Source: Amaranthus tricolor (Eukaryota; Streptophyta; Magnoliopsida; Caryophyllales; Amaranthaceae). Taken from it: a stretch of DNA of 64,000 nt. Shown piece after piece: positions 4,684 to 53,358 of the stretch. The notes below the pieces were generated by a model. That model worked only from the letters and a program-made list of their open reading frames with translations. It did no database searches and was not told the DNA's origin. The position numbers and the translations under genes are program-made. Location: the NCBI RefSeq assembly GCF_026212465.1, contig NC_080058.1:4468501-4532500 (forward strand), given 5' to 3'. The stretch's first letter is position 1. The number at the start of each line of letters is the position of its first letter.

Positions 4684-4686
4684 AAT

Positions 4687-27300: not shown

Positions 27301-27385
27301 CTGGGGTCAATGGAGCATATGCATCGCACTTGCTGCTGTCAGTTGGCCCATTGGCTGGGTTATAAAACACTTTCCGATCTCGTAG
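24362..27385 (+). CDS. Autoinhibited Ca2+-ATPase (P2B type, intronless ACA12/ACA13-like)
   Basis: Exports Ca2+ from the cytosol across a membrane (plasma membrane in the ACA12/13 group) using ATP, resetting calcium signals. The uninterrupted 1007-residue frame is full length. Seen in order: a basic N-terminal stretch (KKRWSLVRN, about residues 22-31), the usual place of the calmodulin-binding autoinhibitory region; TGES at 277-280 in the actuator; PEGLPLAVTL in the fourth membrane segment; the phosphorylated aspartate D451 in DKTGTLT; nucleotide-domain KGAAEMIL; MITGDN; and the hinge TGDGTNDAPAL from residue 749. The C-terminal membrane segments include NFVAAVSSG and LLWVNLIMDTLGALALATE. Arabidopsis ACA12 and ACA13 also lack introns, whereas most other ACA genes have them; the single exon supports this subgroup. 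No lesion is visible. Confidence 0.95.
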   Translation: MKAIGMHQRNLTKTKLRVFDPKKRWSLVRNTVYFIVTLSHKVHKNNHPIKRASLIRSSSYVVLDVESDSKSSVNDVTSSIHFSLTQKTLTSMMKEKDLESLSNLGGVKHIASKLNIDDTLGLSSIDTRGLMLRKAVYGSNVYQRSSKRTFISFIIEAFKDTTIIILWLCACFSLGFGIKQHGPKEGWYDGGSIIIAIVLVVSVSAISNFKQSRQFDKFSKDSSNIPVEVLRDGHRKHISIFEVVASDIVFLKIGDQIPADGLFLDGHSLKLDESSMTGESDHVEVNDRNNPFLFSGTKVTNGYGRMLVTSVGMNTAWGEMMSSINTNLNEETPLQMRLNKLTSWIGKIGLLVASLVLVVLFIRYFTGTTKDEHGNREFNGRKTKTDDVMNTIINIVSAAVTIVVVAIPEGLPLAVTLTLAYSMKKMMAENAMVRKLSACETMGSATTICTDKTGTLTLNQMSVTEFWQSKEKVNNPVRLPSNLHELFQQAVVLNTTGRVCQLPSEQIPEISGSPTEKAILHWAVFDLEMGVEMDELVSGFEILKVETFNSEKKCSGVMARKKNDKKVQVHWKGAAEMILSRCSNYYDKRGVVTSLKDEDMKYKEIIQNMAAKSLRCIAFAHKQVEEDSSLNQLHENELTLLGIVGLKDPCRNGVEKAIATCRKAGVSVKMITGDNIFTAKAIARECRILQLEDQLYEEAVIEGIVFRNYSHEQRMEKIDNIRVMARSSPLDKLLMVQCLKKKGHVVAVTGDGTNDAPALKEADIGLSMGIQGTEVAKESSDIVILDDNFASIVTILKWGRCVYNNIQKFIQFQLTVNMAALVINFVAAVSSGIVPLNAVQLLWVNLIMDTLGALALATEEPTDDLMKKTPVGRTEPLISKIMWRNLTAQALYQITILLTLQFKGKSIFGVEERTKNTIIFNCFVLCQVFNEFNARKLEKKNIFEGILKNKLFLGIVGITIILQVAMVEFLKKFAGTERLNWGQWSICIALAAVSWPIGWVIKHFPIS

Positions 27386-28395: not shown

Positions 28396-28542
28396 ATTTG
28401 ACCCGGAACATATCGACCTAACTGGTCAAAGTTTTGATTGAAAATTTTCTTTAAAAATACAAAATAATATTTTTTATTTTTATAAAAAAACTCTTCTATA
28501 GACAATAGACAACTTAAGGCTTCAACAAAGAAATATTAACTT

Positions 28543-29090
28543 TGTTTTGATTATGAAACGAGGAAGTGCAAAAGACACTTGAAACACCAGAAGTGGAAGC
28601 GTTATCAAGATCAGCGGTCAACGGAGGGAAAGTGACCTGAATTCCTGCAACACAACACGTTAGCTTTGCCCGGGGTGATCTCCAAGAAAACCCCTCCGAC
28701 GCTCAAGTCAGATCAATGAATGACTAATATTAACTTGAATGTAAGGTAATATATGGAGATGTTGGATGATTGTATTCGGGTTTTTAGTGAATAATAATTT
28801 GGGCAGAGTTTTGCTATAGAATAATAAGCATGAACCAAAAATGGTGTTGGTAGGTTTTATTTATAAGAACTAGAGGAGAAAGGAGGATATGATGGATATC
28901 ACGGCGAATGGTGGTAAATGATGGGCAGTTACTTTAGGACCATGGAAGTTACTTGCTTGGTAGCCAAGCGACATAGTTGAGAAGTTAAGAGAAAGCCCCT
29001 TGATTTAAAGTCAAGATCAACAAAAAGTCAAAGGGTGTTAAGGTGATATAGTATTAATAATTAAACAAATAAATAAATGTTACCATAACA
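28543..29090 (-). repeat. Left inverted LTR-like end
   Basis: Read on the minus strand it runs from TGTTATGGTAAC (29090) to AACA (28543), 548 bp, with TGTT...AACA termini. It contains the CTTGAGCGTCGGAGGGG and GGGAGATCACCCCGGG blocks typical of plant Ty3-type LTRs by memory. It matches 44318-44874 in the opposite orientation and 49813-50438. Confidence 0.8.
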
Positions 29091-29199
29091 AAAGCCAAAA
29101 TTTAGATGTCTTCGTGATACATATATAATAATTATCATACATATTTTAAAGCAATTTATATAAGAATATAGTCAAACTTTTAATAAAAAAATTACGTAC

Positions 29200-29430
29200 C
29201 CTTGCGTTTTTTAAGGCATGTCGATATGCGTCCCGAACACGTGTCAATCCATGTTTTAATATATCACTCGAATTGCTTCCTAATATATTTGAATGCGAAG
29301 CACTAAGAAGGGCATTCCGCTGGTTTTTCGACCATTCCATAAATTTTCTAAGATAATCCGAATCCCTCGCTTTTAACAATTCCATGAGAAACGTAATACT
29401 TGATCTCTTCATCATTTCACGGAAATCAAT
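29200..29430 (-). pseudogene. T segment, left copy: unrecognised exon ending in a splice donor
   Basis: On the minus strand it encodes MKRSSITFLMELLKARD, then YLRKFMEWSKNQRNA, SNILGSNSSDILKHG and VRDAYRHALKNAR, ending at a GTACGT donor (29199). It is charged and helical-looking and follows segment P in what was one frame. I do not recognise the family. The donor implies a spliced gene rather than retroviral gag/pol. It lies 110 bp from the LTR-like end. Confidence 0.6.
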
Positions 29431-30180
29431 ATCAATAGGATTTACAAAAGCCTCTTCACATGTTGGGTAGAGACTAATGATATTATGTTGGGTACAAACA
29501 TGATTCACATTTCAACACTCCAGAACACAACATTTTGAAAAATCATGTTCGGATTTACTAGAAGTTGTTGATGAGTAAATTTTATAAACGATTTACCAAA
29601 TGACCTTATCTCTTCACGTATGGTAGTTGAATTTCTGGCTTTAATTTTTCCAAGAGTGTTGAATAACACAGAACGTTCGTTTCCCTCATATGTGCAATCA
29701 TAAGTTTGACGTCTTGATTCATAGTAGGTGAATACAACATTTGTCTTGACCTACATACATGTATCTAAAATATAGAATCGGCCGAAACAGCAAGACAACA
29801 AATACAACGACCATGTTGACAACGCTGAGCACAAGTTTCTTTAGTTCCACAGTCATATACATAACTTCAGAAGCCGATATATTTTTGGATAGATCATAAG
29901 ATATTAAAACTTTCTGAAAACACCAATCGATCTTTACTTTTGAAAATTGATCAAAATTTACACATTTGACCATTAAAATCGGATCATCACGCTCATCAAT
30001 GGTGAAAAGAGGGAGGTGATTAGGAATCGTGTGGCGGTTCATCACACGTCTTATACTTTGAAGAAGGCTCTCTACTTGATTTTGAGGGTTACAATGCACT
30101 TCTTTGTAAAAAGATTATCATCTTTCCAATAAATCGAGACTTCTCCGTGCTGAATTTGTGTGTAACATTCTGGAAAATGA
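29430..30180 (-). pseudogene. P segment, copy 1 minus (the only copy still attached to T)
   Basis: Minus-strand frame from about 30180 includes VESLLQSIRRVMN, LPLFTIDERDDPILM and MYMTVELKKLVLSVV. A 2-bp loss near 29745 shifts the frame and about 23 bp present in other copies is missing near 29485. The MFV-type segment then joins T, showing that P and T were once one reading frame. Function unknown. Confidence 0.6.
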
Positions 30181-31000
30181 AGCACAATGATAAAATGTTC
30201 GTTTCTTTCTTCAAAGCAAGTTTCAAAACCTTGTGGTCTTTAGCCGACGCACGAAGGACGGCTGAGAGGAACGGAGCGTGGCCGGCGAAGAGTGAGTGGC
30301 GGCGGGTAGGACCTACTCTCTCCTTCTCCTACTTATTTTGTTCGACAATAAATAGAAATAAAACCAGAACCCTCGAAGCTGCTTCAATGGAGGTGAGAAA
30401 ACTCATAATGCACTTCAATGGAGAATGGAGAGCACGAGTTCAATAGAGTGAGAGAGCTCGTTCTCACCTTCTCTTCCAGGCCACCACCTCCGAATTCCCA
30501 CCTTCTCCATTGAAGCCGTTTTCGAGCTCTCTCACTCCACTGAAGCAACTGCATGCACCTCCTTCTCTCTTCATATCACTCCTCCATTGAAGTGCATGCA
30601 GAAAAAGAGGTGCCTGCAGCTGCTTCAATGGAGTGAGAGAGCTCAAAAGCGGCTTCAATGGAAAAGGTGGGAATTCGTAGGTGGTGGCTTGGAAGAGAAG
30701 GTGAGAACGAGCTCTCCCACTTCATTGAACTCGTGCTCTCTATTCTCCATTGAAACGCATTCTGAGTTTTCCAACCTCCATTGAAGCAGCTTCGAGGGTT
30801 CTAGTTTATTTGTATTTTTTTTCAAACAAAATAAGTAGGAAAAGGAGAGAGTAAGTCCTACCCGCCGCCACTCACTCTTCGCCGGCCACCCCTCCGTTCC
30901 TCTCAGCCATCCTTCGTGCGTCGGCTACCGACCACCAGGTTTTGAAACTTGCTTTGAAGAAAGACACGAACATTTTATCATGGTTCTTCATTTTCCAAAA
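30180..31000. repeat. U palindrome 1 (axis about 30584), representative of the six U hairpins
   Basis: Arms of about 400 bp around a loop of about 30 bp. Within the arms the 11-bp motif CTTCAATGGAG, or its complement, recurs about eleven times at irregular spacing, so the arms can also fold into smaller nested hairpins. Other copies lie at about 31860-32420 (one arm shortened), 34030-34815, 36420-37210, 38830-39580 and 41200-41970; a half copy is at 43570-43998. Several short open frames cross this region on both strands, but they follow the repeat symmetry and are not credible genes. Confidence 0.75.
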
Positions 31001-31760
31001 TGTTACACACAACATCAGCACGGAGAAGTCTCGATTTGTTGGAAAGATGATACTCTTTTTTACAAAGAAGTGCATTATAACCCTCAAAATCGAGTAGAGA
31101 GCCTTCATCAAAGTATAAGACGTGTGATGAACCACCACACGATTCCAAATCACCTCCCACTTTTCACCATTGATGAGCGTCATGATCAGGTTTTAATGGT
31201 CAAAAGTGTAAATTTTGATCCCTTTTCAAAAGCAAAAATCGATTGGGGTTTTCAGAAAGTTTTAATAACTTATGAACCATCCAAGAATAAATCGGTTTCT
31301 GAAGTTATGTATATGACTGTGGAACTAAAGAAACTTATTTTCAGCGTTGTCAACACAATAGTTGCATTTGTTGTCTTGCCGTTTCGGCCGATTCTTGATT
31401 CTAGATACATGTATGTAGGGGAAGACAACAATGTTGTATTCACCTACTATGAAACAAGACGTCAAACTCATGATTGGGCATATGAGGCAAACGAACTTTC
31501 TTTGTTATTCAACACTCTTGGAAAAAACAAAGCCAGAAATTAAACTACCATACGTGAAAAGATAAGATCATTAGGTAAATGGTTGATAAAATTTACTCGT
31601 CAACAATTTTTAGGAAATCCGAACTTGATTTTTCAAAATGTTGTATTCTGAAGTGTTGAAATGTGAATCATGTTTGTAATCGAATTGCATGATTTCATGA
31701 AGCATAATATCATTAGTCCCTACGCAACGAAGCTTTTGTAAATTCTATTGATAATATTGC
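31000..31760 (+). pseudogene. P segment, copy 1 plus
   Basis: Open from before 31000 to a TAA at about 31541, where the other copies read TCA (serine). Further stops follow: TGA in place of the tryptophan codon near 31650 and TGA in place of CGA near 31665. It ends at the palindrome axis 31779. Confidence 0.6.
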
Positions 31761-32418
31761 CATTGATTTCCGTGAGAATATTTCACGGAAATCAATAGCA
31801 ATATTATCAATAGGATTTACAAAAGCCTCTTCACATGTTGGGTAGAGACTAATGATATTATGCTTCAATGGAGGTGAGAAAACTCCGAATGCACTTCAAT
31901 GGAGAATGGAGAGCACGAGTTCAATAGAGTGAGAGAGCTCGTTCTCACCTTCTCTTCCAGGCCACCACCTCCGAATTCCCACCTTCTCCATTGAAGCCGT
32001 TTTTGAGCTCTCTCACTCCACTGAAGCAGCTGCATGCACCTCCTTCTCTCTTCATATCTCTCCTCCATTGAAGTGCATGCAGAGAAGGAGGTGCCTGCAG
32101 CTGCTTCAATGGAGTGAGAGAGCTCAAAAGCGGCTTCAATGGAAAAGGTGGGAATTCGTAGGTGGTGGCCTGGAAGAGAAGGTGAGAACGAGCTCTCCCA
32201 CTTCATTGAACTCGTGCTCTCTATTCTCCATTGAAGCGCATTCTGAGTTTTCTCACCTCCATTGAAGCAGCTTCGAGGGTTCTGGTTTATTTCTATTTTT
32301 TTTTCAAACAAAATAAGTAGGAAAAGGAGAGAGTAGGTCCTACCCGCCGCCACTCACTCTTCGCCGGCCACCCCTCCGTTCCTCTCAGCCATCCTTCGTG
32401 CGTCGGCTACCGACCACC

Positions 32419-33240
32419 AGGTTTTGAAACTTGCTTTGAAGAAAGACACGAACATTTTATCGTGGTGCTTGATTTTCCAGATTGTTACACACAACTTCAG
32501 CACGGAGAAGTGTCGATTTATTGGAGAGATGATACTCTTTTTTATAAACAAGTACATTGTAACCCTCAAAATCGAGTAGAGAGCCTTCATCAAAGTATAA
32601 GACGTGTGATGAACCACCACACGATTCCTAATCACCTCCCTCTTTTCACCATTAATGAGCGTCATGATCAGGTTTTAATAGTCAAATCTGTAAATTTTGA
32701 TCCCTTTTCAAAAGTAAAGATCGATTGGGGTTTTCAGAAAGTTTTAATATCTTATGAACCATCCAAGAATATATCGGCTTCTGAAGTTATGTATATGACT
32801 GTGGAACTAAAGAAACTTGTGCTCAGCGTTGTCAATACGGTCGTTGCATTTGTTGTCTTGCCGTTTCGGCCGATTCTTGATTTTAGATACATCTATGTAG
32901 GTGAAGAGAACAATGTTGTATTCACCTACTATGAATCAAGACGTGAAACTCATGATTGGGCATATGAGGCAAACGAACTTTCTGTGTTATTCAACACTCT
33001 TGGAAAAAACAAAGCCAGAAATTCAACTACCATACGTGAAGAGATAAGATCATTTGGTAAATCGTAGATAAAATTTACTCATCAACAACTTCTAGGAAAT
33101 CCGAACTTGACTTTTCAAAATATTGTGCTCTGGAGTGTTGAATTGTGATTCATGTTTGTAATCGAATTGCATGATTTCATGGACCATAATATCATTAGTC
33201 TCTACCCAAGGAGGCTTTTGTAAATCCTATTGATAATATT
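32419..33240 (+). pseudogene. P segment, copy 2 plus (longest open copy)
   Basis: The frame is open from about 32419 (GFETCFEERHEHFIVVLDF) to a TAG at 33065-33067, over 210 codons. It lacks an obvious ATG at the start of the conserved region, so the original gene probably began upstream or was spliced. Visible features: a polar N-terminal half, one hydrophobic stretch (KLVLSVVNTVVAFVVLPF) and a charged C-terminal half. I do not recognise a domain. Confidence 0.6.
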
Positions 33241-33284
33241 CTATTGATTTCCGTGATAATATTTAACGGAAATCAATAACAATA

Positions 33285-34030
33285 TTATCAATAAGATTTA
33301 CAAAAGCCTTTTCACATGTTGGGTAGAGACTAATGATATCATGCTTCATGAGGTCATGCAATCCGATTACAAACATGATTCGCATTTCAAAACTCCAGAA
33401 CACAATATTTTGAAAAATCAAGTTCGGATATCCTAGAAGTTGTTGACGAGTAAATTTTATCAACCATTTACCTAATGATCTTATCTCTTCACGTATGGTA
33501 GTTGAATTTCTTGCTTTGTTTTTTCCAAGAGTGTTGAATAACACAGAAGGTTCGTTTGCCTCATATGCGCAATCATAAGTTTAACGTCTTGATTCATAGT
33601 AGGTGAAGACAACAATTGTTGTCTTCACCTACATACATGCATCTAAAATCAAGAATCGGCCGGAACGACAAGACAACAAATGCAACGACCGTGTTGACAA
33701 CGCTGAGCACAAGTTTCTTTAGTTCCACAGTCATATACGTAACTTAAGAAGCCGATATATTTTTGGATAGATCATAAGATATTAAAACTTTCTGAAAACA
33801 CCAATCGATCTTTACTTTTGAAAATGGATTAAAATTTACACATTTGACCATTAAAATCGGATCATCACGCTCATCAATGGGGAAAAGAGGGAGGTGATTA
33901 GGAATCGTGTGGTGGTTCATCACACGTCTTATACTTTGATGAAGGCTCTCTACTTGATTTTGAGGGTTACTATGCATTTCTTTGTAAAAAGAGTATCATC
34001 TTTCCAATAAATCGAGAGTTCTTCGTGCTG
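33285..34030 (-). pseudogene. P segment, copy 2 minus
   Basis: Interrupted by TAA near 33742 (GAA in other copies) and TAA near 33582 (CAA in others), and by a frame change at the 34-bp palindrome 33599-33632. Confidence 0.6.
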
Positions 34031-34814
34031 AATTTGTGTGTAACATTCATGAAAATGAAGCATCATGATAAAATGTTCGTGTCTTTCTTCCAAGCAAGTT
34101 TCAAAACCTTGTGGTGGTAGCCAACGCACTAAGGACGGCTGAGAGGAACGGAGGGTGGCCGACGAAGAGTGAGCGGTGGCGGGTAGGACCTACACTCTCT
34201 ATCTCCTACTTGTTTTGTTCGACAAAAAATAGAAGTAAAACCAGAACCCTCGAAGCCGCTTCAATGGAGGTGAGAAAACTCCGAATGCACTTCAATGGAG
34301 AATGGAGAGCACGAGTTCAATAGAGTGAGAGAGCTCGTTCTCACCTTCTCTTCCAGGCCACCACCTCCGAATTCCCACCTTCTCCATTGAAGCCGCTTTT
34401 GAGCTCTCTCACTCCACTGAAGCAGCTGCATGCACCTCCTTCTCTCTTCATATCTCTCCTCAATTGAAGTGCATGCAGAGAAGGAGGTGCCTGCAGCTGC
34501 TTCAATGGAGTGAGAGAGCTCAAAAGCGGCTTCAATGGAAAAGGTGGGAATTTGTAGGTGGTGGCCTGGAAGAGAAGGTGAGAACGAGCTCTCCCACTTC
34601 ATTGAACTCGTGCTCTCTATTCTCCATTGAAGCGCATTCTGAGTTTTCTCACCTCCATTGAAGCAGCTTCGAGGGTTCTGGTTTATTTCTATTTTTTTTT
34701 AAACAAAATAAGTAGGAAAAGGAGAGAGTAGGTCCTACCCGCAGTCACTCACTCTCCGGCCATCCCTCTGTTCCTCTCAGCCATCCTTCGTGCGTCTCTA
34801 CCGACCACAAAGTC

Positions 34815-35640
34815 TTGAAACTTGCTTTGAAGAAAGACACGAACATTTTATCGTGGTGCTTGATTTTCCAGATTGTTACACACAACTTCAGCACGGAGAA
34901 GTGTCGATTTATTGGAGAGATGATACTCTTTTTTATAAACAAGTACATTGTAACCCTTAAAATCTAGTAGAGAGCCTTCATCAAAGTATAAGACGTGTGA
35001 TGAACCACCACACGATTCCTAATCACCTCCCTCTTTTCACCATTGATGAGCGTCATGATCAGGTTTTAATAGTCAAATCTGTAAATTTTGATCCCTTTCC
35101 AAAAGTAAAGATCGATTGGGGTTTTCAGAAAGTTTTAATATCTTATGAACCATCCAAGAATATATCGGCTTCTGAAGTTATGTATATGACTGTGGAACTA
35201 AAGAAACTTGTGCTCAGCGTTGTCAACACGGTCGTTGCATTTGTTGTCTTGCCGTTTCGGCCGATTCTTGATTTTAGATACATCTATGTAGGTGAAGAGA
35301 ACAATGTAGTATTCACCTACTATGAATCAAAACGTGAAACTCATGATTGGGCATATGAGGCAAACGAACTTTCTGTGTTATTCAACACTCTTGGAAAAAA
35401 ACAAAGCCAGAAATTCAACTACCATACGTGAAGAGATAAGATCATTTGGTAAATTGTAGATAAAATTTACTCATCAACAACTTCAAGGAAATCCGAACTT
35501 GATTTTTCAAAATATTGTGCTCTAGAGTGTTGAAATGTGATTCATGTTTGTAATCGAATTGCATGATTTCATGGACCATAATATCATTAGTCTCTACCCA
35601 AGCAGGCTTTTGTAAATTCTATTGATAATATTCTATTGAT
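34815..35640 (+). pseudogene. P segment, copy 3 plus
   Basis: TAA replaces CAA near 34957, and one extra A in the run near 35395 shifts the frame. The middle part (34997-35395) is open. Confidence 0.6.
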
Positions 35641-35674
35641 TTCCGTGATAATATTTAACGGAAATCAATAATAT

Positions 35675-36420
35675 TATCAATAAGATTTACAAAAGCCTTT
35701 TCACATGTTGGGTAGAGACTAATGATATCATGCTTCATGAGGTCATGCAATCCGATTACAAACATGATTCGCATTTCAAAACTCCAGAACACAATATTTT
35801 GAAAAATCAAGTTCGGATATCCTAGAAGTTGTTGACGAGTAAATTTTATCAACCATTTACCTAATGATCTTATCTCTTCACGTATGGTAGTTGAATTTCT
35901 TGCTTTGTTTTTTCCAAGAGTGTTGAATAACACAGAAGGTTCGTTTGCCTCATATGCGCAATCATAAGTTTGACGTCTTGATTCATAGTAGGTGAAAACA
36001 ACTATTGTTGTCTTCACCAACATACACGCATCTAAAATCAAGAATCGGCCGGAACGACAAGACAACAAATGCAACGACCGTGTTGACAACGCTGAGCACA
36101 AGTTTCTTTAGTTCCACAGTCATATACGTAACTTCAGAAGCCAATATATTTTTGGATAGATCATAAGATATTAAAACTTTCTGAAAACACCAATCGATCT
36201 TTACTTTTGAAAATTGATCAAAATTTACACATTTGACCATTAAAATCGGATCATCACGCTCATCAATGGTGAAAAGAGGGAGGTGATTAGGAATCGTGTG
36301 GCGGTTCATCACACGTCTTATACTTTGAAGAAGGCTCTCTACTTGATTTTGAGGGTTACAATGCACTTCTTTGTAAAAAGATTATCATCTTTCCAATAAA
36401 TCGAGACTTCTCCGTGCTGA
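35675..36420 (-). pseudogene. P segment, copy 3 minus
   Basis: Two overlapping open pieces (36366 to 35983 and 36101 to 35655) show one frame shift near 36000, at the site of an imperfect version of the small palindrome described for other minus copies. Confidence 0.6.
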
Positions 36421-37209
36421 ATTTGTGTGTAACATTCTGGAAAATGAAGCACAATGATAAAATGTTCGTTTCTTTCTTCAAAGCAAGTTTCAAAACCTTG
36501 TGGTCTTTAGCCGACGCACGAAGGACGGCTGAGAGGAACGGAGCGTGGCCGGCGAAGAGTGAGTGGCGGCGGGTAGGACCTACTCTCTCCTTCTCCTACT
36601 TATTTTGTTCGACAATAAATAGAAATAAAACCAGAACCCTCGAAGCTGCTTCAATGGAGGTGAGAAAACTCATAATGCACTTCAATGGAGAATGGAGAGC
36701 ACGAGTTCAATAGAGTGAGAGAGCTCGTTCTCACCTTCTCTTCCAGGCCACCACCTCCGAATTCCCACCTTCTCCATTGAAGCCGTTTTCGAGCTCTCTC
36801 ACTCCACTGAAGCAACTGCATGCACCTCCTTCTCTCTTCATATCACTCCTCCATTGAAGTGCATGCAGAAAAAGAGGTGCCTGCAGCTGCTTCAATGGAG
36901 TGAGAGAGCTCAAAAGCGGCTTCAATGGAAAAGGTGGGAATTCGTAGGTGGTGGCTTGGAAGAGAAGGTGAGAACGAGCTCTCCCACTTCATTGAACTCG
37001 TGCTCTCTATTCTCCATTGAAACGCATTCTGAGTTTTCCAACCTCCATTGAAGCAGCTTCGAGGGTTCTAGTTTATTTGTATTTTTTTTCAAACAAAATA
37101 AGTAGGAAAAGGAGAGAGTAAGTCCTACCCGCCGCCACTCACTCTCCGGCCATCCCTCCATTCCTCTCAGCCATCCTTCGTGCGTCTCTACCGACCACTA
37201 GGTTTTGAA

Positions 37210-38020
37210 ACTTGCTTTGAAGAAAGACATGAACATTTTATCGTGGTACTTGATTTTCCAGATTGTTACACACAACTTTAGCACGGAGAAGTCTCGATTT
37301 ATTGCAGAGATGATACTCTTTTTTACAAACAAGTGAATTGTAACCCTCAAAATCGAGTAGAGAGCCTTCATCAAAGTATAAGACGTGTGATGAACCACCA
37401 CATGATTCCTAATCACCTCCCTCTTTTCACCATTGATGAGCGTCATGATCAGGTTTTAATGGTAAAATGTGTAAATTTTGATCCCTTTTCAAAAGTAAAG
37501 ATCGATTGCGGTTTTCAGAAAGTTTTAATATCTTATGAACCATCCAAGAATATATCGGCTTCTGAAGTTATGTATATGACTGTGGAACTAAAGAAACTTG
37601 TGCTCAGCATTGTCAACACGGTCGTTGCATTTGTTGTCTTGCCATTTCGGCGAATTCTTGATTTTAGATACATGTATGTAGGTGAAGAGAACAATGTTGT
37701 ATTCACCTACTATGAATCAAGACGTGAAACTCATGATTGGGCATATGAGGCAAATGAACTTTCTGTGTTATTCAACACTCTTGGAAAAAACAAAGCCAGA
37801 AATTCAATTACCATACGTGAAGAGATAAGATCATTTGGTAAATCGTTGATAAAATTTACTCATCAACAACTTCTAGGAAATCCGAACATGATTTTTCAAA
37901 ATGTTGTGTTCTGGAGTGTTGAAATGTGATTCATGTTTGTAATCGAATTGCATTATTTTATGGAGCATAATATCATTAGTCTCTACCCAAGGAGGCTTTT
38001 GTAAATCCTATTGATAATAT
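37210..38020 (+). pseudogene. P segment, copy 4 plus
   Basis: TAG near 37281 (CAG in other copies), then open from 37333 to the TGA at 37927-37929, which replaces CGA. This is the longest run of P toward its C-terminal side among plus copies. Confidence 0.6.
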
Positions 38021-38064
38021 TCTATTGATTTCTGTGAAAATATTTCACATAAATCAATAACAAT

Positions 38065-38830
38065 ATTATCAATAGGATTTACAAAAGCCTTTTCACATGT
38101 TGGGTAGAGACTAATGATATCATGCTTCATGAGGTCATGCAATCCGATTACAAACATGATTCGCATTTAAAAACTCCAGAACAAAATAATTTGAAAAATC
38201 AAGTTCGGATATCCTAGAAGTTGTTGACGAGTAAATTTTATCAACCATTTACCTAATGATTTTATCTCTTCACGTATGGTAGTTGAATTTCTTGTTTTGT
38301 GTTATCCAAGAGTGTTGAATAACACAGAAGGTTCGTTTGCCTCATATGCGCAATCATAAGTTTGACGTCTTGATTCATAGTAGGTGACGACAACAATTGT
38401 TGTCTTCACCTACATACATGTATCTAAAATCAAGAATCGGCCGAAACGGCAAGACAACAAATGCAACGACCGCGTTGACAACGCTGAGCACAAGTTTCTT
38501 TAGTTCCACAGTCATATACGTAACTTCAGAAGCCGATATATTTTTGGATAGATCATAAGATATTAAAACTTTCTGAAAACACCAATCGATCTTTACTTTT
38601 GAAAATGGATTAAAATTTACACATTTGACCATTAAAATCGGATCATCACGCTCATCAATGGTGTAAAGAGGGAGGTGATTAGGAATCGTGTGGTGGTTCA
38701 TCACACGTCTTATACTTTGATGAAGGCTCTCTACTTGATTTTGAGGGTTACAATGCATTTTTTGTAAAAAGAGTATCATCTTTCCAATAAATCGAGACTT
38801 TTCCGTGCTGAATTTGTGTGTAACATTCAT
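38065..38830 (-). pseudogene. P segment, copy 4 minus
   Basis: Open from 38830 to about 38375, then out of frame at the small palindrome near 38385-38418, with a further altered stretch near 38295-38310. Confidence 0.6.
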
Positions 38831-39579
38831 GAAAACGAAGCATCATGATAAAATGTTCGTGTCTTTCTTCCAAGCAAGTTTCAAAACCTTTTGGGAGTAG
38901 CCAACGCACTAAGGACGGCTGAGAGGAACGGAGGGTGGCCGACGAAGAGTGAGCAGTGGCGGGTAGGACCTACACTCTCCTTCTACTTGTTTTGTTCGAC
39001 AAAAAATAGAAGTAAAACCAGAACCCTCGAAGCTGCTTCAATGAAGGTGAGAAAACTCCGAATGCACTTCAATTGAGAATGGAGAGCACGAGTTCAATAG
39101 AGCGAGAGAGCTTGTTCTCACCTTCTCTTCCAGGCCACCACCTCCGAATTCCCACCTTCTCCATTGAAGCCGTTTTTGAGCTCTTTCACTCCACTGAAAA
39201 TGCTGCATGCACCTCCTTCTCTCTCCTCCATTAAAGTGCATGCAGAGAAGAAGGTGCCTGCAGCTGCTTCAATGGAGTGAGAGAATTCAAAAGCGGCTTC
39301 AATGGAAAAGGTGGGAATTCGTAGGTGGTGGCCTGGAAGAGAAGGTGAGAACGAGCTCTCCCACTTCATTGAACTCGTGCTCTCTATTCTCCATTGAAGC
39401 GCATTCTGAGTTTTCTCACCTCCATTGAAGCAGCTTCGAGGGTTCTGGTTTATTTCTATTTTTTTTCAAAAAAAATAAGTAGGAAAAGGAAAGAGTAGGT
39501 CCTACCCGCCGCCACTCACTCTCCGGCCAACCCTCCGTTCCTCTCAACCATCCTTCGTGCGTCTCTACCGACCACCAGG

Positions 39580-40405
39580 TTTTGAAACTTGCTTTGAAGA
39601 AAGACACGAACATTTTATCGTGGTGCTTGATTTTCCAGATTGTTACACACAACTTTAGCACGGAGAAGTCTCGATTTATTGGAGAGATGATACTCTTTTT
39701 TACAAACAAGTACATTGTAACCCTCAAAATCGAGTAGAAAGCCTTCATAAAAGTATAAGAGGTGTGATGAACCACCACACGATTACTAATCACCTCCCTC
39801 TTTTCACCATTGATGAGCGTCATGATCAGGATTTAATGGTCAAATGTGTAAATTTTGATCCCTTTCCAAAAGTAAAGATCGATTGAGGTTTTCAGAAAGT
39901 TTTAATAACTTATGAACCATCCAAGAATATATCGGCTTCTGAAGTTATGTATATGACTATGGAACTAAAGAAACTTGTGCTCAGCGTTGTCAACACGGTC
40001 GTTGCATTTGTTGTCTTGCCGTTTCGGCCGATTCTTGATTTTAGATACATATATGTAGGTGAAGAGAACAATGTTGTATTTACCTACTATGAATCAAAAC
40101 GTGAAACTCATGATTGGGCATATGAGGCAAACGAACTTTCTGTGTTATTCATCACTCTTGGAAAAAACAAAGCCAGAAATTCAACTACCATACGTGAAGA
40201 GATAAGATCATTTGGTAAATGGTTGATAAAATTTACTCATCAACAACTTCTAGGAAATCCGAACTTGATTTTTCAAAATGTTGTGTTCTGGAGTGTTGAA
40301 ATGTGAATCATGTTTGTAATCCAATTGCATGATTTCATGGATCATAATATCATTAGTCTCTACCCAACGAGGCTTTTGTAAATCCTATTAATAATATTGC
40401 TAATG
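39580..40405 (+). pseudogene. P segment, copy 5 plus
   Basis: TAG near 39655 (CAG elsewhere) and TGA near 39884 (TGG elsewhere). Open again from 39947 to the TGA at about 40304. Confidence 0.6.
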
Positions 40406-40434
40406 ATTTCCGTGAGAATATTTCACGGAAATCA

Positions 40435-41200
40435 ATAACAATATTATCAATAGGATTTACAAAAGCCTTTTCACATGTTGGGTAGAGACTAATGATATTA
40501 TGCTTCATGAGGTCATGCAATTCGATTAGAAACATGAATCGCATTTCAACACTCCAGAACACAACATTTTGAAAAATCAAGTTCGGATATCCTAGAAGTT
40601 GTTGACGAGTAAATTTTATCAACCATTTACCTAATGATCTTATCTCTTCACGTATGGCAGTTGAATTTCTTGCTTTCTTTTTTCCAAGAGTGTTGAATAA
40701 CACAGAAGATTCGTTTGCCTCATATGCGCAATCATAAGTTTGACGTCTTGATTCATAGTAGGTGAAGACAACAATTGTTGTCTTCACCTACATACATGTA
40801 TCTAAAATCAAGAATCGGCCGAAACGACAAGACAACAAATGCAACGACCGTGTTGACAACACTGAGCACAAGTTTCTTTAGTCCACAGTAATATACGTAA
40901 CTTCAGAAGCCGATATATTTTTGGATGGATCAAAAGATATTAAAACTTTCTGAAAACACCAATCGATCTTTACTTTTGAAAATGGATTAAAATTTACACA
41001 TTTGACCATTAAAATTGGATCATCACGCTCATCAATGGTGAAAAGAGGGAGGTGAATAGGAATCGTGTGGTGGTTCATCACACGTCTTATACTTTGATGA
41101 AGGCTCTCTACTTGATTTTGAGGGTTACAATGCATTTCTTTGTAAAAAGAGTATCATCTTTCCAAAAAATCGAGACTTCTCCATTCTGAATTTGTGTGTA
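40435..41200 (-). pseudogene. P segment, copy 5 minus
   Basis: A 1-bp loss near 40882 and the frame-shifting palindrome 40758-40791 interrupt it. Keeps CGA where most plus copies have TGA. Confidence 0.6.
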
Positions 41201-41969
41201 ACATTCTGTAAAATGAAGCATCATGATAAAATGTTCGTGTCTTTCTTCCAAGCAAGTTTCAAAACCTTCTGGTGGTAGCCAACGCACTAAGGACGGCTGA
41301 GAGGAACGGAGGGTGGCCGGCGAAGAGTGAGCGGTGGCAGGTAAGGCCTACTCTCTCCTTCTCCTACTTATTTTGTTCGACAAAAAATAGAAATAAAACC
41401 AGAACCCTCGAAGCTGTTTCAATGGAGGTGAGAAATCTCAGAATGCACTTCAATGGAGAATGGAGAGCACGAGTTCAATAGAGTGAGAGAGCTCGTTCTC
41501 ACCTTCTCTTCCAGACCACCACCTCCGAATTCCTACCTTTTCCGTTGAAGCCGGTTTTGAGCTTTCTCACTCCACTGAAACAGCTGCATGCACCTCCTTT
41601 TCTCTTCATATCTCTCCTCCATTGAAGTGCATGCAGAGAAGAAGGTGCCTGCAGCTGCTTTAATGGAGTGAGAGAGCTCAAAAGCGGCTTCACTGGAGAA
41701 GGTGGGAATTCGTAGGTGGTGGCCTGGAACAGAAGTTGAGAACGAGCTCTCCCACTCCATTGAACTCGTGCTCTTTATTCTCCATAGAAGCGCATTCTTA
41801 GTTTTTTCACCTCCATTGAAGCAGCTTCGAGGGTTTTGGTTTTATTTCTATTTTTTTTCAAACAAAACAAGTAGAAAAACGAGAGAGTTGGTCCTACCCG
41901 CCGCCACTCACTCTCCGGCCACCCCTCCGTTCCTCTCAGCCATCCTTCGTGCGACTCTACCGACCACCA

Positions 41970-42785
41970 GGTTTTGAAATTTGTTTTGAAGAAAGACACG
42001 AACATTTTATCGTGGTGCTTGATTTTCCAGATTGTTACACACAACTTCAGCACGGAGAAGTCTCGATTTATTGGAGAGATGATACTCTTTTTTTACAAAG
42101 AAGTGCATTGTAACCCTCAAAATTGAGTAGAGAGTCTTCATCAAAGTATAAGACGTGCGATGAACCACCACACGATTTCTAATCACCTCCCTCTTTTCAC
42201 CATTGATGAGCGTCATGATCAGGTTTTAATGGTCAAATGTGTAAGTTTTTGATCCCTTTTCAAAAGTAAAGATCGATTGGGGTTTTCAGAAAGTTTTAAT
42301 ATCTTATAAACCATCCAAGAATATATCGGCTTCTAAAGTTATGTATATGACTGTGGAACTAAAGAAACTTATGCTCAGCGTTGTCAACACGGTCGTTGCA
42401 TTTGTTGTCTTGCCGTTTCGGCCGATTCTTGATTTTAGATACATGTATGTAGGTGAAGAGAACAATGTTGTATTCACCTACTATGAATCAAGACGTCAAA
42501 CTCATGATTGGGCATATGAGGCCAACGAACTTTCTGTGTTATTCAACACTCTTGGAAAAAACAAAGCCAGAAATTCAACTACCATACGTGAAGAGATAAG
42601 ATCATTTGGTAAATCGTTGATAAAATTTCAACTTCTAGGAAATCCAAACTTGATTTTTAAAAATGTTGTGTTCTGTAGTGTTGAAATACGAATCATGTTT
42701 GTAATCGAATTGCATGAATATCATTAGTCTCTACCCAACATGTGAAAAGGCTTTAGTAAATCCTATTGATAATATTGCTATTGAT
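41970..42785 (+). pseudogene. P segment, copy 6 plus
   Basis: TGA near 42124 (CGA elsewhere) and one extra T near 42248. Shares private changes with the neighbouring minus arm, including loss of about 18 bp near 42716. Confidence 0.6.
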
Positions 42786-42809
42786 TTCCGTGAGAATATT
42801 TCACGGAAA

Positions 42810-43570
42810 TCAATAGCAATATTATCAATAGGATTTACTAAAGCCTTTTCACATGTTGGGTAGAGACTAATGATATTCATGCAATTCGATTACAAACATG
42901 ATTCGTATTTCAACACTACAGAACACAACATTTTGAAAAATCAAGTTCGGATATCCTAGAAGTTGTTGACGAGTAAATTTCATCAACCATTTACCTAATG
43001 ATCTTATCTCTTCACGTATGGTAGTTGAATTTCTTGCTTTGTTTTTTCCAAGAGTGTTGAATAACACAGAAAGTTCGTTTGCCTCATATGCGCAATCATA
43101 AGTTTGACGTCTTGATTCATAGTAGGTGAAGACAACAATTGTTGTCTTCACCTACATACATGTATCTAAAATCCAGAATCGGCCGAAACGACAAGACAAC
43201 AAATGCTACGACAGTGTTGACATCGCTGAGCACAAGTTTCTTTAGTTCCACAGTCATATACATAACTTCAGAAGCCGATATATTTTTGGATGGATCATAA
43301 GATATTAAAACTTTCTGAAAACACCAATCGATCTTTACTTTTGAAAATTGATCAAAATTTACACATTTGACCATTAACATTGGATCATCACGCTCATCAA
43401 TGGTGAAAAGAGGGAGGTGATTAGGAATCGAAAGGTGATTCATCACACGTCTTATACTTTGATGAAGGCTCTTTACTTGATTTTGAGGGTTACAATGCAC
43501 TTCTTTGTAAAAAGAGTATCATCTTTCCAATAAATCGAGACTTCTCCGTGCTGAATTTGTGTGTAACATT
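42810..43570 (-). pseudogene. P segment, copy 6 minus
   Basis: Two open pieces (43500 to 43117 and 43151 to 42867) separated by the frame-shifting palindrome 43122-43155. Confidence 0.6.
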
Positions 43571-43998
43571 CTGTAAATGAAGCACCATGATAAAATGTTT
43601 GTGTCTTTCTTCAAAGCAAGTTTCAAAACCTAGTGGTCGTAACCGACGCACGAAGGACGGCTAAGAGGAACGGAGGGTGGCCGGCGAAGAGTTAGTGGCG
43701 GCAGGTAGGAATTACTCTCTCCTTCTCCTACTTATTTTGTTTGACAAAAAATAGAAATAAAACCAAAACCCTCGAAGCTGCTTCAATGGAGGTGAGAAAA
43801 CTCAGAATGCGCTTCAATGGAGAATGGAGAGCACGAGTTCAATGGAGTGAGAGAGCTCGTTCTCACCTTCTCTTCCAGGCCATCACCTCCAAATTCCCAC
43901 CTTCTCCATTAAAGTCGTTTTTGAGCTCTCTCACTCCATTGAAGCAACTGCATGCACCTCCTTCTCTCTTCATATCTCTCCTTCATTGAAGTGCATGC

Positions 43999-44208
43999 AG
44001 AGATCAAATATTACATTTCTCAAGGAATTGTTAAAAGCGAGGGATTCAGATTATCTTAGAAAATTTATGGAATGGTCGAAAAACCAGCGGAATGCTCCCC
44101 CTAGTGCTTCGCGTTCAAATATATTAGGAAGCAATCCGAGTGATATATTAAAACAAGGATTTGACACGTGTTCGGGACGCATATTGACATGCCTTCAAAA
44201 ACACGAGG
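43999..44208 (+). pseudogene. T segment, right copy
   Basis: Encodes NITFLKELLKARDSDY and the following T blocks and ends at a GTAAGT donor (44209). A 1-bp change near 44160 shifts the end of the frame (RILTCLQKHE instead of AYRHALKNAR). It is joined directly to a U arm, without P, by a deletion at about 43995-44000. Confidence 0.6.
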
Positions 44209-44317
44209 GTAAGTAATTTTTTTATTAAAAGTTTGACTATATTCCTATATAGATTGCTTTAAAATATGTATGATTATTATTATATATGTATAACGAACAC
44301 ATCTAAATTTTGGCTTA

Positions 44318-44874
44318 TGTTATGGTAATATTTATTTATTTAATTATTAATACTACATTACCTTAACACCCTCTGACTTTTTGTTGACTTGACTTTCAAT
44401 CAAGGGGCTTTCTCTTAACTTCTCAACTGTCTTGCTCGGCAACCAAGCAAGTTTCTTCCATGGTCCTAAAGTAACTGCCCATCATTTACCACCATCCCCC
44501 ATGATACCCATCATATCTTCCTTTCTCCTGAAATAACTCCCCTCTAATTCTTATAAATAAAACCTACCAACACCATTTTTGGTTCATGCTCATTATTCTA
44601 TAACAAAACTCTGCCCAAATTATTATTCATCAAAAACCCGAATACAATCATCCAACATCTCCATATATTACCTTACATTCAAGTTAATATTATTCATTCA
44701 TTGATCTGACTTGAGCGTCAAAGGGGTTTCCCGGGAGATCACCCCGGGCAAGGCTAACGTTTTGTGTTGCAGGAATTCAGGTCACTTCCCCTCCGTTGAC
44801 CGTTGATCTTGATAACGCTTCCACTTCTGGTGTTTCAAATGCTTTTTGCACTTCTTCGTTTCATAATCGAAACA
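44318..44874 (+). repeat. Right inverted LTR-like end
   Basis: Runs from TGTTATGGTAATAT to CGAAACA, 557 bp. It is the inverted partner of 28543-29090. The base side facing the array is the LTR 5' (U3) end in both copies, so both outer ends are U5 ends. I see no purine-rich tract just left of 44318, which a normal 3' LTR would have. Confidence 0.8.
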
Positions 44875-46124
44875 AACTCAATACAAAAATTAACAAGCAA
44901 TAGAGTGGATACCAACCAAAAATTGACGAGAAACTCAGTACTTGAAAAAAAAAAGGAAAATAGTTCAAGAGGATCTAGTTTACGATATAATCGAGTTTGA
45001 CCCTTTTTCGGCTTTTTTGAATCATGCCACCATTATCAGTCAGGTTTCGGGTCAAATCAAAATTTGCAATAAATTCAACAAATTGCTAAAAGTTTATGGT
45101 GCAAAACTAGAAAGGGTGAGTTGAGATCACGGCAGCATAAACTTTAAATCAGTTTGCCAAAGTCTACTATTTACCAGAAATTATCACAAGCTGTAACGCA
45201 AACAAATCAAGCATCAGGAGTCTCCAGTAGGCACAATGTTAGTCAATCATCACTGCAAATTATTGAAAAGCGTAACATGAGATTCCCTCCCTGTTTCAAG
45301 GCAAATTCAAAGTTAATGTACCTCAAAGGTTACAAGCAATAACTATATATATCAAGTACTTCAATAACAAGAACAACCAAGCTGCATGCTCACACGAACT
45401 TCTAAAGGTCGGAAACAAATTAAAGAGTACTAACAGAGAAACAAACTGATAACAAGCTCACTGCAAAGAAATTAACACGTATCAGCCGAAGTAAGAATCA
45501 GAGGTGCAAAAAGTTTCAACTGGCATACATATACATGTAGTTTTACAGATAAATCATCAGCATTGATGTCGAGCGAATAACTTTGGCACCAGATATCTCA
45601 ATCCAACCATATAAGTTGGTAAATCATTGGTATATAAAGTGAAGCAAAGAACTTTGACACCAGATCACCAGATATCTAAACCTAAACGTTATATCAACTG
45701 CTAGCAAACAGAGAGGAATGACCAGATCATCAGAAGATTGACATAGTGATGCTATATTACTGATAGGCCTAAAACCATAAAGTGAAGGCTGAATTAACAC
45801 TCACACCAACAAATAGTCGCATCATGACAGGGATTTCTAAACTTAAGTTGGTAGTATCTCTGAATTGAAAAGCATAAAATGTGATGGTTCACATAGTCAA
45901 TTAGATCTAACTTTGAACCAAAACTAACTAATAGAAGTGAAATTGGCTCTAATAGTCCAGAGACTCTTCTGTGGAGAATGATGTTGCCAAGAGCCAAATA
46001 CAAACTTTATGATCTAACTCTGATCAAGTGACCTACAACTATAATAGACTATATCAAAATAGCTAGCTCACTGAATCATGTGCAATTTTTACTTATGTGA
46101 AACAGAACATGATGTTTGCCAACA

Positions 46125-49812: not shown

Positions 49813-50438
49813 TATTATTCATAACATTTATTCATTTATTTATTTATTTAATTATTAATGTTATATTACCTTAATACCCTTTAACCTTGACTTTCGGTCA
49901 AGAGGTTTTTTCTAAACTTCTTAACCATTTTGCTTGGTCACTAAGGTAGTAACTTCACTAACCCTAAAGTAACTACCCGAAGTTACTACCCACTACCATC
50001 CCTAACCCTAAAGTAACTACCCGAAGTTACTACCCACTACCATCCATCATACCCATAATGATCTACTTTCTCCCAGAAATAACTCCCTCTCCACCATTAT
50101 AAATAGAGGCAGCCAGCATCAATGAGAGGACAGTAACAAATACCATACCAAAACTCCGTACTCACAATCATCTTCATTAACCTGCACAAATACAAGCAAC
50201 TTTTACCCTGACATCTATATTCCTGCATTCAATTTATTATCGTTTATTCGTTAATCTCTCATCTTCGTTCTAACTTGAGCGTCGGAGGGGTTTTCCGGGA
50301 GATCACCCTCGGGCAAGGCTAACGTGTTGTGTTGCAGGAATTCAAGTCACTTCCATTCCGCTAATTGCTGATCTCGATAACACTTCCTCCTCAAGTATTT
50401 AAAAGTGTCTTGCACTTCCTCATTTTATCAGCGAAACA
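49813..50438 (+). mobile_element. Solo LTR of the family that bounds the palindromic array
   Basis: The left end TATTATTCATAACATTTATT aligns with TGTTATGGTAACATTTATT of the array LTRs; the right end is CGAAACA. Flanks ATTCA (49808-49812) and ATTCT (50439-50443) look like a 5-bp target duplication with one mismatch. It shares the ACTTGAGCGTCGGAGGGG, TTCCGGGAGATCACC and GGCAAGGCTAACG blocks. A TATAAATAGAGG box lies near 50098. An internal 44-bp tandem duplication occupies 49959-50046. Confidence 0.8.
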
Positions 50439-51255: not shown

Positions 51256-52034
51256 TAGTTTTTCATTTTTCTTAAATGCTAGCTTAAAAACTACTTTTTC
51301 TGTTCTTTTTTGTTCTTCTTATTTGCTTTTTGCACAGTTTTTAAAAAGCAAATTTGAGGCTTCAATATCTCTATATACACATTATAAACAATCATATAAA
51401 AAATATATGATAAAAAAATATATATCAAGACAAATCTCGTATCGATATATTTTATCTTCTATTTATGTCTCAAACACCTTAATTAAATTTCTTTCTCCTC
51501 AAAGTGAAATATTCTAAAGGGGAAGAACATTAGAGAACCGAGAAAGTATTTAACAAATAAATAATTATTTGATCAACCTACAAACCATATGAACCAAAAG
51601 TATGTAATATTCAATATGATGTTTTAGATTTGTCATCAAAAGGACAAAATATTGGCTAAGATGGTTTGGTTTTTAATAATAGAGGTCTCGTAACTTGAAA
51701 TAATATGTAAAGTGTTTCCTTTAAGTTAAAGCTTTACCTAATTCATTATTTTGTTAAATTCTGTTTGATTCAAATTAAAGCAATGATTCGTTGAAAGAAA
51801 ATTTAGTTTTCCGATTAAATTTAACTTACGTTCAATAAAAAATAAATAAGTTTCAATTAATAAAATATCGACTTAAAATAAAAATTATATTAACAATATA
51901 ACAAGCTCAATAAATTGTGCTTTAGTTTATAGGAAAAAAATCTTAAGGTAAAATCGAGTATAGTTTTTATGGGATAAAATTACGTATTTGTACAATTAAA
52001 GGGGCAACTGTAATTAGAAAATAAGATCATTGAA

Positions 52035-52696
52035 TGTAACAACCCGGTCCAACGGATTCTTGATAACTACTCATAGAGACTGTAGACTGGCTCCACAGAC
52101 CAACACAAGTCTTTTCCAGCGCACTTTGACCTCACTTGTGCGTGCCCGGGAAAACTTCTCAGGAGGTCATCCATCCTAAGAGTGCTCTCCACCAAGCACG
52201 TTTAACTGTAGAGTTCTTAGCAAATGAGCCCCTATGAAAAGAAGATACACCTTATTTATATGAGTAATCTATCAATGTTTTTTAAACCTAAATTTGGGGT
52301 ATCACACTCTTCCCTACTTAAGAATACAATGTCCTTGTTGGACCGTAGTTTCAGGATCTTTTCCCCCGCTAGGTACACTGAACGCACAATCAGCCACGGT
52401 GACAGGGTTGCTCTGATACCTTTTTTAACACCCCGACCCCAACAGACTGTTGGTAACTACTCATGGAGACTGTAGACTGACCCCACAGACCAACACAAGT
52501 CTTTTCCAACGCACTTTGGCCTCACTCGTGCGTGCCGGGAAAACTTCCTAGGAAAGTCACCAATCCTAAGATTGCTCCCCACCAAGCACGCTTAAGTGTG
52601 GAGTTCTTAGCAAATGTACCACATGAAAAGAAAATACACCTTGTTTGTATGAGTAATCTACCAATTTTTTTTTAAAGCTAAATCTAGGATATCACA
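52035..52696 (-). mobile_element. Cassandra TRIM retrotransposon
   Basis: Two LTRs (52035-52306 and about 52424-52696) flank about 117 bp. Read on the minus strand, each LTR starts TGTGATA and ends GTTACA or a diverged form of it. Each contains a 5S rRNA-like block (AGAACTC, GTTAA, CGTGCTTGG, then AGGATGGGTGACCT on consensus), the hallmark of Cassandra elements. Flanks TTGAA (52030-52034) and TAGAA (52697-52701) suggest a 5-bp target duplication with one mismatch. No protein is encoded, so it depends on other retrotransposons for mobility. Confidence 0.9.
52410..52420 (-). promoter_or_regulatory. Primer binding site of the Cassandra element
   Basis: GGTATCAGAGC on the minus strand, complementary to the 3' end of initiator tRNA-Met, lies just after the 5' LTR. 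At the other end of the interior a purine-rich tract (AGGGAAGAG) abuts the 3' LTR at 52307. Confidence 0.8.
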
Positions 52697-53358
52697 TAGA
52701 ACTTAGAAAAGCTATAGCAAAAGAGATAATTTTTATTGAGTAAAAGGGTTCAAATAATAACAAGAGGGGTACGGGTTGGGTAGCTTTCGGTTCTGGCTTA
52801 GTTTTCGGATTAGGTTGCATTCGAATAGCTTTAGGCATGATGGTAGTTGGTATGCTAAAGAATTTCTATAGGCATTGGTAGAGAAATTAATGCGAGAAAG
52901 AAAAGAAGTATGTGGATGAGATAAAAATGTAAATTAAAGATATAGATCAAATTTAGAGAAATGTAAATCATAATAAAAATAAAAGTTTGAAAAATTTCAT
53001 GAGATTTACTTGAAAAGAAAAATGGTAAATTCCGTAAGACACAAGCACTTTACCATATATAGCCAAATTCATTGGTATTTACTTTTGGTAATTCTATATG
53101 ATTTCAAACTAAGTTGGATCTGTAACCAAATGGCCAAAACTTTTGGTGGAACATGATCTTATGTAATGTTGTTTGAAAATAGTAACATATGGTTTTCTTA
53201 AAAGGTATTTTTACCGAATTCAAAACCTAAAAAACCTTGACATTTAATTCAAAATTATAGTGTTTCTCTAGTAATTTTCTAATAAATAGTTTAAAACTTA
53301 ATAAAATTTGAAAGAGTTATTACACGAAAATTCTATACATAATATTTTTGGAAAAATT

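Follow-up and report, generated by a model that had tools for sequence, protein, structure and literature searches.

In DNA elements of the Foldback, FARE and Galileo type, the inverted ends are very long and repeats also occur internally. Among LTR retrotransposons, the LTR motif of the locus described here presumably belongs with the plant Ty3/Gypsy Tat/Retand group. Retand LTRs measure 315–1,194 bp, and the region from pol to the 3′ LTR in Tat/Retand elements typically contains additional ORFs as well as repeat arrays (PMC11963269). Inverted terminal LTRs are known from DIRS elements (PMC5633606), and an inverted LTR pair has been called the classic structure in a locust Gypsy subfamily (PMC8786324). 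Cassandra retroelements form tandem arrays (PMC7215508), and Mu killer of maize, in which part of a transposon is naturally duplicated in inverted orientation, has been proposed to yield a hairpin RNA of about 4 kb (PMC3440606).

The present locus lies in a 64,000-nucleotide stretch of the Amaranthus tricolor genome (the window) and consists of a palindrome array inside inverted LTRs (Table 1). It shares long inverted ends with the Foldback, FARE and Galileo type, but here the ends are LTRs, and the termini and the duplication differ. A TATA box, TG..CA ends and an LTR size within the Retand range agree with Tat/Retand elements (PMC11963269), whereas the LTRs are inverted and neither gag-pol, in the ORFs tested, nor a polypurine tract was found; neither TRP28 nor any other Pfam domain scored above cut-off in these ORFs. 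Inverted terminal LTRs are also a feature of DIRS (PMC5633606), but the locus differs in its TG..CA ends and putative target duplication and in showing no reverse transcriptase or tyrosine recombinase in the tested ORFs. Both Cassandra arrays and this locus are chromosomal arrays of LTR-element copies; the former are tandem (PMC7215508), whereas here an inverted unit of 2.39 kb is enclosed by inverted LTRs. Mu killer is a MuDR duplication with demonstrated silencing (PMC3440606), whereas this locus has twelve axes and derives from an LTR element. Among the literature matches listed for LTRs in inverted or opposite orientation and for palindromic LTR layouts, none was recognized, by its title or the opening of its abstract, as the arrangement described here. 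The letters of the LTR motif occur in a paper that, by its title, reports a bean GWAS, and longer LTR strings had no occurrence in the literature text search. In viral contigs, the R-U5 motif matched six stretches (L001–L006), none with LTR context in the 180 bases inspected, and two other LTR patterns gave 0 matches.

In a self-BLAST comparison, long matches in both direct and inverted orientation fill the interval 28543–44874 as a single block, and the two outer ends (28534–29419 and 43987–44883) align with each other in opposite orientation at 90.7% identity, in agreement with the earlier note on this DNA. A symmetry scan of 28.0–45.5 kb with 150-bp arms and a threshold of 75 returned 11 axes scoring 97–147 out of 150; the best centre outside the element scored 80 (at 56669, a short inverted repeat; n = 93,601 centres), and the next distinct one 73. 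The twelfth axis, at 31778, has a right arm of just about 83 bp and stayed below the scan threshold, but is legible by eye. This confirms a single palindrome array with 12 alternating axes, the number first counted by reading. The spacing of about 2.39 kb originally given for like axes holds at 2,375–2,396 bp, except across the deletion at 31861, where it falls to 1,481 and 1,486 bp. Within the arms, the gene reads from the B axes toward the A axes. The right end of the array is no mirror of the left, and one arm is truncated, features absent from the earlier description.

Table 1. Features of the palindromic locus and its surroundings (window coordinates).
Feature	Position	Strand	Details
Left flank AACTT, putative 5-bp target duplication	28538..28542	.	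4/5 match to right flank
Left LTR, inverted, U5 outward	28543..29090	-	548 bp; contains TATAAATA and TTGAGCGTC
Gene-fragment flank contiguous with left LTR	29091..29430	-	Exon end, splice-donor-like AG/GTACGT, ~110 bp to LTR
Palindrome array	29430..43985	.	12 arms of ~1.19 kb plus one truncated arm
1,002-bp tract	29877..30878	.	Identical to 36144-37145; offset 6,267
B axes	30584, 32065, 34461, 36851, 39233, 41619		Scan/sequence
A axes	31778, 33264, 35654, 38045, 40422, 42797		Scan/sequence
Internal deletion junction	31861	.	Arm past A axis 31778 lacks ~0.9 kb
302-bp tract, second exchange tract	33281..33582	.	Identical to 35670-35971
Right outer junction, B loop joined to LTR-side gene flank	43985..44000	.	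By eye; ATGCAGAGA/ATGAAGAGA 8/9
Gene-fragment flank contiguous with right LTR	43995..44317	+	Sequence
Right LTR, U5 outward	44318..44874	+	557 bp
Right flank AACTC, putative target duplication	44875..44879	.	Sequence
Diverged LTR relative, probable solo LTR, outside element	49813..50438	+	Without gene flank; K2P 0.35-0.37 to outer LTRs

The LTR ends of the element were defined via the diverged copy at 49813–50438, the one place in the window where the terminal sequence recurs as an LTR, with the LTR portion only. Since this copy has the same U5 end base as the outer LTRs and its similarity fades near the U3 start, the outer ends of the element are LTRs; the copy itself is flanked by ATTCA/ATTCT and starts with TA where TG would be expected. 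Comparison of the LTRs places U5 outward on both sides, as had been proposed, and the pair is thus inverted rather than in the direct orientation of a canonical LTR retrotransposon. Only the outer 548 and 557 bp belong to the LTR proper, and gene fragment makes up the ~320 bp that follow, a division not made in the earlier note. No polypurine tract was found beside U3 within 100 bp upstream, the longest purine run being 5 on both sides.

The element begins with TG at 28543 and ends with CA at 44874, and these ends and their flanks read as originally described. A 4/5 flank match is reached by 2.4% of random 5-mer pairs in the window, and among boundary pairs up to 12 bases from the ends 19/625 give 4/5 and 0/625 give 5/5, so that the match is notable solely for its position on TG/CA. 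The single target duplication claimed before is a weak point of that reading, being imperfect, and is best called putative. At shifted boundaries (28541/44884), the 10-bp flanks AAATATTAAC/AAAAATTAAC match at 9/10, which random flank pairs reach in 3.2% of cases, and the termini there are not mutual inverted repeats. Separate LTR insertions with their own duplications had been named as an alternative; at neither LTR does the outer flank (AACTT on the left, AACTC on the right) recur on the inner side, where the bases are AAAGC and GCTTA, respectively. Because, in addition, the same gene flank adjoins both internally, the outer LTRs are not two LTRs inserted alone.

The gene fragment in the arms is decayed, and its sole named database relative is in quinoa; the exon end at the left flank coincides, by eye, with the match limit of the quinoa protein P0006. 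As a query in a protein search, the quinoa protein found no relative but itself at E <= 0.01, and the array protein had no relative in the viral contigs. Among the 20 stop-to-stop ORFs of 28543–32080, the 10 tested gave no gag-pol or other Pfam domain above cut-off and two weak matches below it; three further element ORFs had no Pfam domain, and neither reverse transcriptase nor tyrosine recombinase was detected by Pfam in these 13. A stretch of 201 aa is open in one of the 12 arms (32065–33264), and the other 11 carry a stop or frameshift against that arm. Differences from each group's consensus (152 non-synonymous, 14 of which create stops, and 42 synonymous) correspond to a pN/pS of 0.94, a rough value in that a change shared by several arms enters the count once for each of them and the reverse (R) arms are frameshifted. 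A coding function of the arms was considered and is not supported, given this ratio and the 11/12 broken arms.

At the B axes, the arms are symmetric to within a loop of about 31 nt containing a 10-bp inverted repeat, CTGCATGCAC/GTGCATGCAG, which pairs in the predicted single-stranded DNA fold. The A junction is the same in all six A axes with small differences; independent fold-backs at each axis were rejected, the six A junctions being homologous to one another and likewise the six B junctions. The right outer junction lies about 3–13 bp past the A fold point, and by a simple estimate a position within ~13 bp of that point would arise in about 2% of cases if the two were independent. With its right end formed by a separate junction next to the A fold point, the array suggests that axis A arose when a break was repaired by fold-back, not in the original dimer; the inverted-dimer origin suggested earlier for the palindromes would thus not extend to this axis. 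Near B, predicted single-strand folds show no more than moderate stability: three pieces beside it have z = −2.87, −1.94 and −1.19, while the sequence spanning the right junction gives −2.00 and the intact A site +0.11. The simplest self-snapback, at ATTTC-CGT-GAAAT, would not yield the A junction.

Forward (F) and reverse arms form separate clades, each at 100/100, with divergences of ~5.5% between like arms, 10.6% between opposite arms and 7.3% for the outer pair. Over all arm columns, the F–R distance of 0.106 (0.092–0.122) and the outer-pair distance of 0.073 (0.053–0.092) have intervals that barely meet, so the arms may have differed before dimerization or evolved faster. In columns 740–1170, the left-outermost arm stands at 0.087 from F and 0.095 from R, and F–R is 0.083; these intervals overlap, also with that of the outer LTR-plus-flank pair (0.073), and dimerization, the A event and insertion may therefore have been close in time. 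That units have recently exchanged sequence or undergone conversion is shown by the identical tract of 1,002 bp. Together with the separate F and R clades and the homologous junctions in all units, it supports later exchange between units, in line with the earlier view that the inner unit was amplified by unequal exchange. Of 205 private changes, 89 are C>T or G>A and 21 are T>C or A>G, with C>T rates per site of 0.021 (CG), 0.016 (CHG) and 0.014 (CHH); this excess fits methylation, yet it was set aside as evidence, the count having no control.

To account for these features, we favor a sequence of fold-back cDNA, U5–U5 insertion, a single break with fold-back repair, and unequal exchange, to which we assign slightly less than an even chance. 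A non-autonomous LTR-retrotransposon derivative carrying the gene fragment would have given rise to a cDNA that folded back near the 5′ side of the gene (axis B), producing an inverted dimer whose two tips are both U5 ends. An integrase from another element may have inserted this dimer via its two U5 ends (LTR'-gene'-B-gene-LTR). The right gene arm would then have broken at the A position, and a single repair by fold-back copying and end joining would account for both axis A and the unusual right junction (LTR'-gene'-B-gene-A-gene'-B-LTR). The inverted unit of 2.39 kb would then have multiplied to about six by unequal exchange, with homogenization by the same process ongoing. The earlier note had likewise proposed a palindromic cDNA or dimer integrated by two U5 ends, and the U5-outward LTRs agree with it, while the integration itself is a proposed step. 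In favor of this course are LTR ends with the same U5 end point as the third copy, the 4/5 duplication exactly at TG/CA, the symmetric B arms, the uniform A and B junctions, the F and R clades, the overlapping distances in columns 740–1170, the right junction near A, and the decay of the gene fragment seen in the 11/12 broken arms and the pN/pS of 0.94; the absent polypurine tract beside both LTRs is compatible with a self-primed plus strand. Against it stand the imperfect duplication, which 19/625 nearby boundary pairs equal, the 9/10 flank match at 28541/44884, the F–R distance over all arm columns with its interval barely meeting that of the outer pair, the moderate fold stability near B and the A junction at odds with the simplest self-snapback. 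Moreover, a hairpin has a single open end, so two U5 ends would require an extra step.

Two same-family insertions lying head to head, fused at B by deletion of their 5′ halves and later subject to unequal exchange, could explain the divergence of the outer pair as divergence among family members and the B loop as a deletion junction, and a 4/5 flank match is not rare among random pairs. We nevertheless regard this as unlikely: the deletion would need matching end points in the two elements, to within ~31 nt over a length of ~2 kb, and the outer flank match would be due to chance. The missing inner duplications are compatible with two longer elements. Axis A, the right junction with its 8/9 microhomology and the deletion at 31861 resemble DNA-level repair, and the palindrome and array could have formed once an ordinary insertion was already in the chromosome, through fold-back replication or breakage–fusion and with no odd integration. 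The U5 terminus as the stopping point of both outer ends, and the similarity of their flanks, would then go unexplained, and we judge this course quite improbable.

A terminal-inverted-repeat DNA transposon, Foldback- or MULE-like, with an LTR captured in its ends, would fit the long inverted ends and the alternative 10-bp flanks, but the ends coincide with LTR ends set by an independent copy, the termini at the alternative boundaries are not mutual inverted repeats, and no transposase domain occurs among the tested element ORFs; we judge such an element highly improbable. Slightly less probable still in our estimation is one-go rolling replication of a hairpin closed at A and B, or an assembly error: alternating axes at constant spacing are the expected product of such a template, and exact repeat tracts of 1,002 and 302 bp could be read in favor of either. 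Rolling replication would start from identical opposite arms, yet F and R clades are separate, although concerted evolution could mimic this; dumbbell replication of the 1.19-kb unit as the sole source was disfavored on the same separation. Same-direction arms are only 92.5–97.9% identical, which argues against duplicated reads and simple assembler stutter.

In sum, the locus looks like an unusual retrotransposon accident and not a new kind of element. Inverted LTR pairs are readily taken for nested or separate insertions; this locus is open to dissection, as its LTR ends can be distinguished from the fold-back junctions and from the later exchange. Folded as RNA, one 2.38-kb unit has a predicted energy of −1,776 kcal/mol, against a range of −435 to −480 for five window segments of equal length, showing by fold prediction a capacity for long hairpin RNA. 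The chain of 1.19-kb hairpin arms is accordingly a candidate source of long double-stranded RNA, and hairpin RNA or silencing may occur at the locus. The locus makes U5–U5 integration testable in plant genomes, through LTR pairs with U5 outward and one shared target duplication. Tentatively, and with more doubt than confidence, we propose that in plants an integrase can insert inverted-dimer cDNA via two U5 ends and thereby seed palindromes that break and expand into alternating-axis arrays, a route that would lead from one reverse-transcription error to a self-homogenizing hairpin locus, possibly a persistent source of siRNA against a gene family or relatives of the LTR.

The element at 28543–44874 was identified by self-alignment and a symmetry scan as a palindrome array, and its outer ends are inverted copies of each other in the self-alignment, as an earlier note had claimed. 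The twelve alternating axes of that note are likewise borne out: 11 were scored in the array by the scan (97–147 of 150), and the twelfth was read by eye. Outside the element, the top score among 93,601 centres was 80, near 56669, and the next distinct centre scored 73. Two axis types, A (tight) and B (with a ~31-nt loop), take turns at ~1.19 kb between neighbours, and like axes, put about 2.39 kb apart in the note, are spaced at 2,375–2,396 bp except across 31861, where ~0.9 kb is missing from one arm. The locus is real and unusual, a palindromic LTR-element derivative that was amplified afterwards. Several short CTCCATTGAAG-like motif copies, inverted and direct within one arm, were seen by eye at 30380–30790 and in the homologous flanks of other B axes.

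Features of the element and its neighbourhood (positions in the window)
Feature	Position	Remark
B axes	30584, 32065, 34461, 36851, 39233, 41619	
A axes	33264, 35654, 38045, 40422, 42797	
Twelfth axis (A)	31778	short right arm; by-eye reading of sequence
Calcium-ATPase ORF, ACA12/13 type, uninterrupted	24362–27385	1.2 kb left of element
Decayed MULE-like element	4672–6691	MuDR DNA-binding domain, then ORF with plant mobile domain
Dispersed repeat, three ~280-bp direct copies, 84–85% alike	52028–52306, 52423–52700, 56795–57076	self-alignment
Imperfect palindrome, ~240 bp (79%), perhaps MITE-like	56549–56790	self-alignment and symmetry scan (score 80 near 56669)

The outermost 548 bp (left) and 557 bp (right) span TGTTATGG to AAACA. 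Within them, TATAAATA is at 226/235 and TTGAGCGTC, a putative marker of Tat-type LTRs, is at 385/394 of the left/right LTR. Because a diverged third copy at 49813–50438 (K2P 0.35–0.37) resembles them in the LTR only, shares their U5 terminal base and loses similarity close to where U3 begins, the outer ends are LTRs with both U5 ends outward, which supports the earlier reading. This third copy is a probable solo LTR, flanked by ATTCA/ATTCT and starting with TA in place of TG.

The proposed single target duplication is putative: the flanks are AACTT (left) and AACTC (right), and an equally good match is found in 2.4% of random 5-mer pairs and in 19 of 625 boundary pairs at most 12 bases from the ends. 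At shifted boundaries, 10-bp flanks match at 9 of 10 positions, a level that 3.2% of random flank pairs attain. The inner LTR flanks do not repeat the outer ones, so these are not two solitary LTR insertions, each with a duplication of its own.

Between LTR and array, ~320 bp of one gene fragment is present on both sides (left versus right K2P 0.073), and the gene reads from every B to every A. The arm protein matched seven database proteins, namely Chenopodium quinoa A0A803KUN8, one listed as the window's own and five entries from ena, jgi or lgn. No match was returned by Pfam in three ORFs of the element and none above cut-off in ten further ORFs. Stops or frame changes break 11 of the 12 arms and pN/pS is 0.94; thus, there is no sign of constraint on the fragment. 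The neighbouring calcium ATPase shows 77% identity to quinoa and beet proteins.

The 12 full arms form a forward and a reverse clade (100/100 each), with K2P of 0.054–0.055 within either, 0.106 (0.092–0.122) between them and 0.073 (0.053–0.092) for the outer LTR-plus-flank pair. Over columns 740–1170, a part of the arms that lies clear of the largest recent exchange, forward arms, reverse arms and the outermost left arm are about equidistant (0.083–0.095), and a single junction is common to all axes of the same type. The separate clades, divergence pattern and single junctions therefore indicate that the inverted unit arose once, its arms diverged, and multiplication or homogenisation came later. 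Identical tracts of 1,002 bp (29877–30878 and 36144–37145) and 302 bp (starting at 33281 and 35670), from a scan that kept just the longest exact run per offset, show recent exchange. Of the claimed amplification by unequal exchange, the exchange between units is supported. Identity over 134 bp in the arms flanking A axis 42797 (42660–42934), the element's only inverted exact run of at least 120 bp, suggests recent exchange across the palindrome centre too.

U5–U5 integration of a fold-back cDNA is a plausible and testable origin. No polypurine tract lies beside either LTR; a minus-strand cDNA without one may have folded back at B, where a 10-bp inverted repeat, CTGCATGCAC/GTGCATGCAG, is paired in the predicted fold. 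The resulting duplex would carry U5 at the end that stays open, and its opening or replication would yield an inverted dimer that integrase could insert by its two U5 ends. Predicted folds are moderate near B (z −2.87, −1.94 and −1.19), the right junction has z −2.00, and no fold is predicted at the intact A site (z +0.11). In the main alternative, a deletion fused two insertions that lay head to head; this requires both that the deletion was symmetric and that the flanks match by chance.

At the array's right end, a B loop meets the gene flank in a junction over ATGCAGAGA/ATGAAGAGA, which lies about 3–13 bp past the A fold point. Since two unrelated breakpoints would fall within 13 bp in a 1,190-bp arm with a chance of about 2%, one break may have made both axis A and this junction. 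The gene side would then fold back and be copied as far as the B loop, and the copied end would be joined to the LTR side.

C>T/G>A changes dominate private arm changes in all three sequence contexts of the array (29430–43985), an excess, in an uncontrolled comparison, such as heavy methylation would give.

No description of this layout was found in the portions of the literature searched; DIRS elements, as described in the text consulted (PMC5633606), share the inverted LTRs. The claimed capacity for very long hairpins agrees with fold prediction: one 2.38-kb unit as RNA is predicted at −1,776 kcal/mol, with 92% of its bases paired across the B axis; five further stretches of equal length gave −435 to −480. 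The putative LTR promoters are directed outward. Mu killer, according to the part of the source consulted (PMC3440606), is a natural inverted duplication for which a ~4-kb hairpin RNA was proposed.
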